Of a DNA stretch of 34,704 bases, positions 99 through 34,647 are shown one piece after another; the first letter of the stretch is position 1, and each line of letters begins with the position of its first letter. The stretch lies in assembly GCA_016193585.1 (NCBI GenBank), contig JACPRW010000009.1, forward strand, positions 1 to 34,704, in the 5' to 3' direction. The translations under genes and the position numbers were made by a program. Under the pieces are notes generated by a model that was given only the letters and a program-made list of their open reading frames with translations, had not been told where the DNA came from and did not search any database. The DNA comes from Candidatus Aenigmatarchaeota archaeon (GTDB lineage: Archaea; Aenigmatarchaeota; Aenigmatarchaeia; GW2011-AR5).

Positions 99-113
99 AC
101 AAAAGGGAAGGTC

Positions 114-141
114 ATAGGAAACCGTAGGTTTCCTATTTCAT
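114..141. repeat. Short hairpin plus 15-base repeat, copy 1
   Basis: ATAGGAAACC (114-123) and GGTTTCCTAT (127-136) form a perfect 10-bp stem with a GTA triloop. The right arm and the bases after it, GGTTTCCTATTTCAT (127-141), recur exactly at 16033-16047, where a similar hairpin with one mismatch is present. The ATG of the next open frame falls inside this copy. Confidence 0.5.
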
Positions 142-626: not shown

Positions 627-719
627 TAGTATGTTCAGTTTATTTTGGAACATTTTATGCTGAACATACACTATAGCAGGTTCGAACGAAAAGTTCCAGT
701 ATTATTCGAACCTACTATA
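627..719. mobile_element. Double-hairpin element, copy E1 (93 bp)
   Basis: Hairpin 1 has the stem GTATGTTCAG (629-638) / CTGAACATAC (660-669) with a 21-base loop containing TGGAAC. Hairpin 2 has the stem 672-685 / 706-719 (TATAGCAGGTTCGA / TCGAACCTACTATA, one mismatch) with a 20-base loop containing GTTCCA. The two loops are complementary (TGGAAC with GTTCCA). The junction CTATAGCAG and the terminal CTATAAT are shared with E4. TAAT occurs on both sides (624-627 and 718-721), as a possible target duplication. No protein is encoded. Confidence 0.8.
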
Positions 720-16010: not shown

Positions 16011-16021
16011 GCAGCGGACAG

Positions 16022-16047
16022 AGAAAACCGCGGGTTTCCTATTTCAT
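16022..16047. repeat. Short hairpin plus 15-base repeat, copy 2
   Basis: AGAAAACC (16022-16029) and GGTTTCCT (16033-16040) form a stem with one mismatch and a GCG loop. GGTTTCCTATTTCAT (16033-16047) is identical to 127-141. It lies just after the minus-strand gene ending at 16060, where it could act as an mRNA-end structure. Confidence 0.45.
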
Positions 16048-27962: not shown

Positions 27963-28598
27963 TCAGAGCGTTTTCTTGTACACATGGCATACGATACGCT
28001 CATTCGGGCGAGGTACCCAGTCAACGGCGCCAGCTATGGTATACCCATTCGCTTCCCAGAACGCGAACACTCCATGCTTCTCAAACGGATGGTCGTTGCT
28101 CAGGGGGACGCAGACCATACTGCAGCCCAGTTGTCGTATCAGTTTTTCAGCAGATGCAAGTAACTGCGCGTCTGCTTTCTTGTCCTTATATGGTGAATTG
28201 CACTGGTTATGTCCTGATATTATTTGCAATTCACCTATAGAAAATTGCGCGTTAATACGACATAAGCTGCGCAATTATCTATAATTGGTTTCTGTAGTAA
28301 ACGCAATGATATGCGCCCAGCGTCCGGTCAGAGGCTCTGTCATGCGCATCGCACCAAAGTCTTCTGGGACGTCATTTTCGCCCAGCAGCTCGAACACGAC
28401 AAAGCCGGTTATTGCTTTATCGGTTTCGGCAACCAGAATTCCCTGCGGGAATGATGCCATTTTTCTTGAGAAATAACGGGCATCAGCTCCGTATGCACCG
28501 TATGCCTCCTTGTCGAGCTCCACCAGTTTACTGACATCGTGCTCGGTGGCTTGCCGTACGCGCATCAATCTATCTGCTGCACGCGTATGCGCTTTCAC
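27963..28598 (-). pseudogene. GNAT N-acetyltransferase gene interrupted by a double-hairpin element
   Basis: Two open frames form one GNAT protein. The upstream part (28598 or 28565 to 28275) reads MRVRQATEHDVSKLVELDKEAYG to IIAFTTETNY. The downstream part resumes at 28187 with KDKKADAQLLASAEKLIRQLGC and ends with FEKHGVFAFWEANGYTIAG and VCHVYKKTL. Removing exactly 93 bp restores ...TETNY-KDKKADAQ... and a normal protein of about 169 residues. The insert stays in frame but brings one TAA stop (28275-28277), so readthrough or loss of function are both possible. It overlaps the KH-protein gene by 4 bases (GTGA), indicating an operon. Confidence 0.85.
28187..28283. mobile_element. Double-hairpin element, copy E2, inside the GNAT gene
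   Basis: GGTGAATTGCA (28192-28202) pairs with TGCAATTCACC (28225-28235), flanked by TATA on both sides. AATTGCGC (28243-28250) pairs with GCGCAATT (28269-28276), flanked by TATAG (28236-28240) and CTATA (28279-28283). The loops are complementary: on the minus strand TTATGTC in one and GACATAA in the other. Repeated TAT codons at 28188 and 28281 mark a 93-bp insertion with a TATA-type duplicated target. Confidence 0.85.
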
Positions 28599-32550: not shown

Positions 32551-32739
32551 TATAGCTGACCAACTTAATATTCAGGTATTACACAAGTTGGTCACCTATA
32601 GTGAACCAAGTTATAATAGTAAAGAACATTGATTTTGGAACATTTTACAATGTTCTTTCCCTATAGCAGATTGTGGTAAAAAGTTCCATTATTATTACAA
32701 TCTGCTATAATATCCGGATTCTTTACTTGGTTAACTATA
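32551..32739. mobile_element. Double-hairpin element, copy E3, interrupted by E4
   Basis: Hairpin A: TGACCAACTT (32557-32566) with AAGTTGGTCA (32585-32594), flanked by TATAG (32551-32555) and CTATA (32596-32600). Hairpin B: AACCAAGT (32604-32611) with ACTTGGTT (32725-32732), flanked by TATAGT (32597-32602) and ACTATA (32734-32739). Hairpin B's loop contains the whole of E4. Without E4 the element is 96 bp, and its loops are again largely complementary (TTCAGGTATT with AATATCCGGA, allowing G-U). Confidence 0.78.
32617..32709. mobile_element. Double-hairpin element, copy E4 (93 bp), nested in E3
   Basis: Hairpin 1: AAAGAACATTG (32621-32631) with CAATGTTCTTT (32648-32658), loop containing TGGAAC. 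Hairpin 2: TATAGCAGATTGT (32662-32674) with ACAATCTGCTATA (32697-32709), perfect, loop containing GTTCCA. Length equals E1 exactly. TATAATA occurs on both sides (32612-32618 and 32706-32712). It interrupts the loop of hairpin B of E3. Confidence 0.82.
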
Positions 32740-34511: not shown

Positions 34512-34550
34512 TATATGGTGAATTGCACTGGTTATAGTGGACCAACAAAA
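34512..34550. repeat. Truncated double-hairpin element (E5)
   Basis: The first 24 bases (34512-34535) are identical to E2 bases 28187-28210, including the stem arm GGTGAATTGCA. They then run into TATAGTGGACCAA, matching the start of E3 hairpin B (TATAGTGAACCAA) at 12 of 13 positions. The right arms are missing. It looks like a deletion derivative joining the left arms of both hairpins. The remaining 34551-34640 region holds nothing else recognised. Confidence 0.6.
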
Positions 34551-34647
34551 GAATACCGACATATTACTCGCCTGCGTGAATGCTGCGTGGTCTTGACCCG
34601 CAGATGAGAGCAGGCTCCCTTTTTCTTGAGGCACGTGTAAAAGTTTA

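Follow-up and report, generated by a model that had tools for sequence, protein, structure and literature searches.

A minus-strand reading frame running from 28598 to 27963 in the window, the whole stretch of 34,704 nucleotides analysed here, is interrupted by a repeated element that we call E2 (Table 1). The frame reads ...TETNYR*LRSL...SPYKDKKADAQ..., and excision of exactly 93 bp (28188-28280) yields a single open frame of 180 codons in which ...TETNY is followed directly by KDKKADAQ.... The joined 180-aa protein matched the GNAT profile PF00583 over residues 28-136, across the junction (E 5.9e-4), with a score of 20.5 bits that lies just under the Pfam cut-off of 20.7. Searches of NCBIfam (E 5.1e-4) and PDB (E 0.079) with the joined protein each gave a weak GNAT match, and the two halves taken singly matched neither PF00583 nor any other profile in the same search. 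The original prediction that two GNAT halves join once 93 bp are removed is thus borne out by one open frame with a family match across the junction. Among 39 relatives, with no same-genus genome among them, the GNAT gene had only weak matches, in three, and no orthologue was found in the contig-collection search.

The insert keeps the frame simply through its length, 93 being divisible by three, and our reading of the GNAT frame agrees with the earlier claim that it brings one stop only, a TAA, which is its second codon. At this stop the GNAT protein ends at residue 107, ahead of the C-terminal part of the domain. We infer a loss of function, and the split gene is most likely inactive. Readthrough to a full-length protein, which had also been proposed, is possible but finds no support in the frame, and it is unlikely to matter because the stop follows so closely on the start of the insert.

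The window is contig C10 of a 1.17-Mb genome (G000; 10 contigs, 90.75% complete). Its proteins look archaeal. The transposase contigs of a genome of the same order, G020, identify the latter as Candidatus Aenigmatarchaeota NC_groundwater_1917, and we therefore assume that the host is a DPANN archaeon from the same order.

Table 1. Positions of the split gene, of E2 and of related elements in the window
Feature	Positions	Strand	Basis
GNAT 5' part, GTG start	28284..28598	minus	frame reading, profile search
GNAT 3' part	27963..28187	minus	frame reading, profile search
E2, 91 bp, minus-strand reading TAGATAATTGCGC...CACCA	28191..28281	minus	23 aligned copies, empty site
TA target duplication, copy 1	28189..28190		aligned copies, empty site
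TA target duplication, copy 2	28282..28283		aligned copies, empty site
E2 hairpin with IS630-like end; 15-bp stem, one mismatch, 18-nt loop	28236..28283		folding, end match
E2 second hairpin; 11-bp stem, 22-nt loop	28192..28235		folding
E1, other family, 91 bp; TAA duplications 624-626, 718-720	627..717	plus	copy alignment
E5, TA-flanked double-hairpin element, interrupted by E4	32553..32737	plus	empty copy in L053
E4, 91 bp with TAA duplications, within E5 second loop	32617..32707	plus	94 bp longer than empty site
Remnant: E2 first 24 bp, then E3 start, then degenerate; end approximate	34512..34567	plus	sequence matches

Copies, ends and target sites

A blastn search of E2 against its own genome returned 54 matches, 23 of them full length (the GNAT copy included). 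In the alignment 18 of these were identical over 94 bp, four were 98.9% and one 97.9% identical, and they sit at different sites with different flanks, a recurrence that exceeds chance. Two further matches, at 70-72% identity, belong to another family, F4. Set against the MITE properties given in an extract of PMC10969869, E2 is short, non-coding and multicopy (91 bp, 23 full copies), its termini are imperfect inverted resemblances of each other, and its copies are flanked by a TA duplication in 21 of 23 cases and add 93 bp to an empty site; the two remaining copies (L034 and L039) have unequal flanking dinucleotides. The duplicated unit is TA and not, as originally predicted, a TAT codon, which leaves an element of 91 bp with exact ends. 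With A as its first base and T as its last, E2 would have the same flanks after a TA duplication as after a duplication-free insertion between T and A.

Empty and filled sites were found as paralogues within the genome. Seven of the 23 E2 copies (L026-L028, L031, L032, L040, L043) are nested in other elements as judged by both flanks; L034, whose flanks match two different families, was left out of this count. The second loop of E5 is empty in L053, where the distance is 15; it is occupied by E2 in L026, L027 and L028 (distance 108, +93) and by E4 in the window (distance 109, +94). The three E5/E2 composites may be one insertion copied onward and so are not necessarily three events. Other elements have in turn split some of the E2 copies, within either loop 1 or loop 2, and the length difference between intact and E3-filled E2 loops is 95 bp. 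From these length differences (+93, 95 bp), E2 (91+2), E3 (93+2) and E5 therefore behave as TA-duplicating elements. E3 or E7 was also seen at the same loop positions of E2 copies at different genomic sites (L045-L049, L053-L061), so that either the composites move as units or insertion has recurred at a single position.

E1 and E4 carry a 3-bp TNA duplication (91+3) with a variable middle base, which is clear, unlike the TA of E2. The left and right triplets of E1 agree in most copies, TGA and TTA included (exceptions L008 and L009), and E4 has one exception (L040). Each of the two elements thus adds 94 bp, and not the 93 bp that had been given as their length. Because they use TNA, the families may not all depend on one and the same mobiliser. 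One E1-like element (L074:1547-1636; G000:C1:102146-102235) adjoins a remnant matching DDE_Tnp_1 (C1:102236-102394).

We screened 57 element copies for interrupted genes. Apart from the GNAT gene, only two clear cases were recognised: E2 splits a frame that we take, from its sequence, to be vapB-like and to adjoin a PIN gene (L042), and E4 splits a transposase-like ORF, presumably of the IS1595 type (L046). The remaining long joined frames look spurious, and the majority of E2 copies fall in no recognisable gene.

Double-hairpin architecture and its spread

About ten families of the genome consist of two abutting hairpins with nearly constant total length. All ten, folded as single-stranded DNA, formed two hairpins (z -3.6 to -11.6), and none of 200 shuffles of each was as stable. 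In seven TA families, 17 of 26 pairs had changed on both sides (0/500 shuffles). Ten 20-kb stretches of the genome, spaced regardless of hits, contained 21 tandem hairpin pairs, some of which are arrays of short hairpins and not 93-bp elements; the window contained three and shuffled sequences none. Elsewhere we counted one in 200 kb of G007, none in 120 kb of G008 and none in 60 kb of G005. Stretches picked near transposase or E2-match loci held two in 51 kb (G020), none in 32 kb (G002) and none in 9 kb (G021).

A second class of hairpins, with stems of 8-11 bp and mostly 3-nt loops, is often arrayed (L168:14535-14686, L173:7038-7188, L174:2818-2900; window 110-141 and 16016-16047; G020 L198:3849-3938). 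Hairpins of this class also occur in the TA junction between the hairpins of E3 or E7, where they give longer composites (L045, L047, L048, L054, L059).

For covariation we aligned 40 E7-like copies, selected from the full-length matches listed, with the one of our own genome (39 distinct sequences). In the first hairpin 91.1% of cells are paired and in the second 97.1%, and the whole structure, loop pairs included, has 160 double-sided changes compared with 58 in shuffles (0/500). Mutual information was 1.17 and 1.02 within the hairpins and 0.03-0.49 between arms of different hairpins; RNAalifold, run unaided, predicted the second hairpin alone. Since E7 covaries strongly with no excess of G-U (11 G-T against 18 A-C mismatches in hairpin cells), the constraint on the hairpins points to DNA rather than RNA. 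Template-switch correction of palindromes could be a source of covariation that is free of selection, but 34 of the 39 sequences retain an unpaired A in hairpin 2, which speaks against this mechanism as the whole story.

The loops of E1, E2, E7 and F2 have complementary runs of 6-8 nt in common (partner permutation over 11 families: 190/20000). As kissing loops, the E7 loop pairs did no better than shuffles (422/500; 39 distinct sequences), and we rejected a structured RNA with kissing loops on the missing loop covariation and the mismatch counts of E7, the family tested; the copies of E2 hardly vary. Because the E7 loops pair with no covariation, the loop similarity is better read as common terminal repeats.

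E2 matched in two of 97 genomes, its own and, as one half-match, G002. E4 matched in 12 and E7 in 19 of 40 genomes, own included, and neither matched in nine genomes related at class level only. The E2 pattern had no match in viral contigs; a 17-base loop pattern of E1/E4 matched 37, which we take as chance given the length of the pattern. A search for MITEs of Aenigmatarchaeota and DPANN archaea found these elements undescribed in the library searched, which is not proof of absence.

Terminal repeats and routes of mobilisation

IS630-family transposons of G020 have TATAGATAACTGCGAAACTTGGATGACGCC at one end and TATAGATAACTGCATAAGTTACATGACATA at the other, and TATAGATAACTGCG ends occur on IS630 relatives in two contigs, L154 from Nanoarchaeota (protein identity 69%) and L157 from Pacearchaeota. 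Against the G020 ends, E2 scored above all 2000 shuffles with its right end, as did F8, a family of our genome, with both of its ends. The left end of E2 matched weakly, with 18 of 2000 shuffles scoring equally well, and the ends of E1, E3 and E4 were not significant in the shuffle test. The claim that E2 is an insertion and not a resident structure is strongly supported by this IS630-like end together with the near-identical copies in different flanks and the +93 difference between empty and filled sites.

Because one end matches DPANN IS630 terminal repeats, our preferred reading of E2 is an IS630-type MITE, which makes it a new family of an established kind, and we consider it likely that it was mobilised in trans and multiplied recently, with one copy in the GNAT gene. 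An IS630-type transposase supplied in trans would recognise the ends of E2 and move it, probably by cut-and-paste, to a TA dinucleotide, which would be duplicated; during recent multiplication in this DPANN genome one copy would have entered the GNAT gene, adding 93 bp and the early stop. The source of the enzyme may be lost, unassembled or in another cell.

Neither the PF13358 (DDE_3) profile, which matched in three of 18 genomes, nor the G020 IS630 protein as query, which matched in seven of 97, found an IS630 transposase in G000 (90.75% complete), and this enzyme may have been lost, may have escaped assembly or may come from another source. An IS630-derived MITE usually shares its genome with such a transposase, although this does not strictly define it. 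G000 has one intact DDE_Tnp_1 gene (C5:81500), with ends that by eye are unlike those of E1 or E2. Likewise by eye, different ends were seen at the IS630 loci of G002 and G021, and the autonomous IS630 copies in G020 have no matching terminal hairpins. None of the transposase loci examined offered an autonomous partner for E7 or E1/E4. A degenerate IS630 transposase fragment in L105 (G020:C72) is overlapped at its end, near position 1671, by an element whose terminus is E3-like, with its first 24 nt identical; RUP is likewise said to overlap IS genes.

Alternatively, E2 could move as folded single-stranded DNA through an HUH enzyme (Y1, of the IS200/IS605 or REP type) and leave no target duplication, a model that fits all 23 copies. 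The two hairpins conserved in every family, the insertion of other elements into loops and the unpaired A of E7 would suit such a route, but the TNA duplications of E1 and E4, with a variable middle base and a 94-bp difference to the empty site, are genuine, and E7 prefers a palindromic T-TA-A flank (28 of 34 preceded by T, 28 of 34 followed by A). No Y1 transposase was found in G000, with matches in eight of 30 genomes, and the end of E2 resembles IS630; we regard the HUH route as improbable.

That E2 acts in RNA, for instance as a structured intron or bypass element that is excised from the transcript or passed over in it and so still allows GNAT to be made, is very improbable. The insert is in frame and folds as two hairpins, but its stop stands at codon 2, most copies lie outside recognisable genes, the E7 hairpins do not have G-U above A-C as conserved RNA would, and Rfam had no match in the window. 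Least credible of all is that two independent genes lie side by side around a resident structured spacer, with no insertion: an uninterrupted orthologue was not found, but the joined frame is open, the GNAT match spans the junction and the spacer is a high-copy repeat.

Comparison with known elements and implications

Mitochondrial double-hairpin elements (DHE) resemble E2 in their two hairpins and mobility but are elements of organelles. Among bacterial elements, RUP shares TATAG-like ends with E2. In the extracts of PMC2229807, RUP of pneumococcus (107 bp) is, like E2, a tiny AT-rich non-coding element with a TA target and IS630-like ends (IS630-Spn1), and according to a part of PMC3049150 it is foldable and at times splits a gene annotated as two CDSs. 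E2 differs from it in being shorter, in its two abutting hairpins, in its DPANN host and in that no transposase was found in the genome. The Correia/NEMIS elements of Neisseria are MITEs, about 107 or 155 bp in length, that have terminal TA and a duplication (PMC2229807, in extract); they differ from E2 in sequence and internal organisation, and the description there mentions no double hairpin. The same extracts describe Rickettsia palindromic elements (RPE) as palindromic, 105-146 bp long and located inside protein genes. RPEs remain translated in frame, whereas E2 brings a stop to the GNAT gene and mostly lies outside recognisable genes. We rejected E2 as an RPE, as it is not open in the host frame.

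The double-hairpin form is unusual and, with the order-wide covariation, is the part worth following. We offer tentatively that double-palindrome MITEs are spread throughout the order in Aenigmatarchaeota-type archaea, and that complementarity at the DNA level and the unpaired base might be conserved because extruded hairpins, or else four inverted binding sites, are what the transposition complex recognises. Such elements, on this doubtful but possible extension, would multiply in genomes devoid of the enzyme, on transposase from elsewhere.

The insertion explains a split gene that annotation would give as two proteins, and E2 shows that MITEs were active very recently in a DPANN archaeon. 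The hairpins maintained by paired changes in E7, a family spread over many genera, raise the question of whether a DDE-type transposase or replication selects palindromic ends. Movement of elements that lack their own transposase, in tiny symbiont-like genomes, makes a case for the supply of enzyme between cells.
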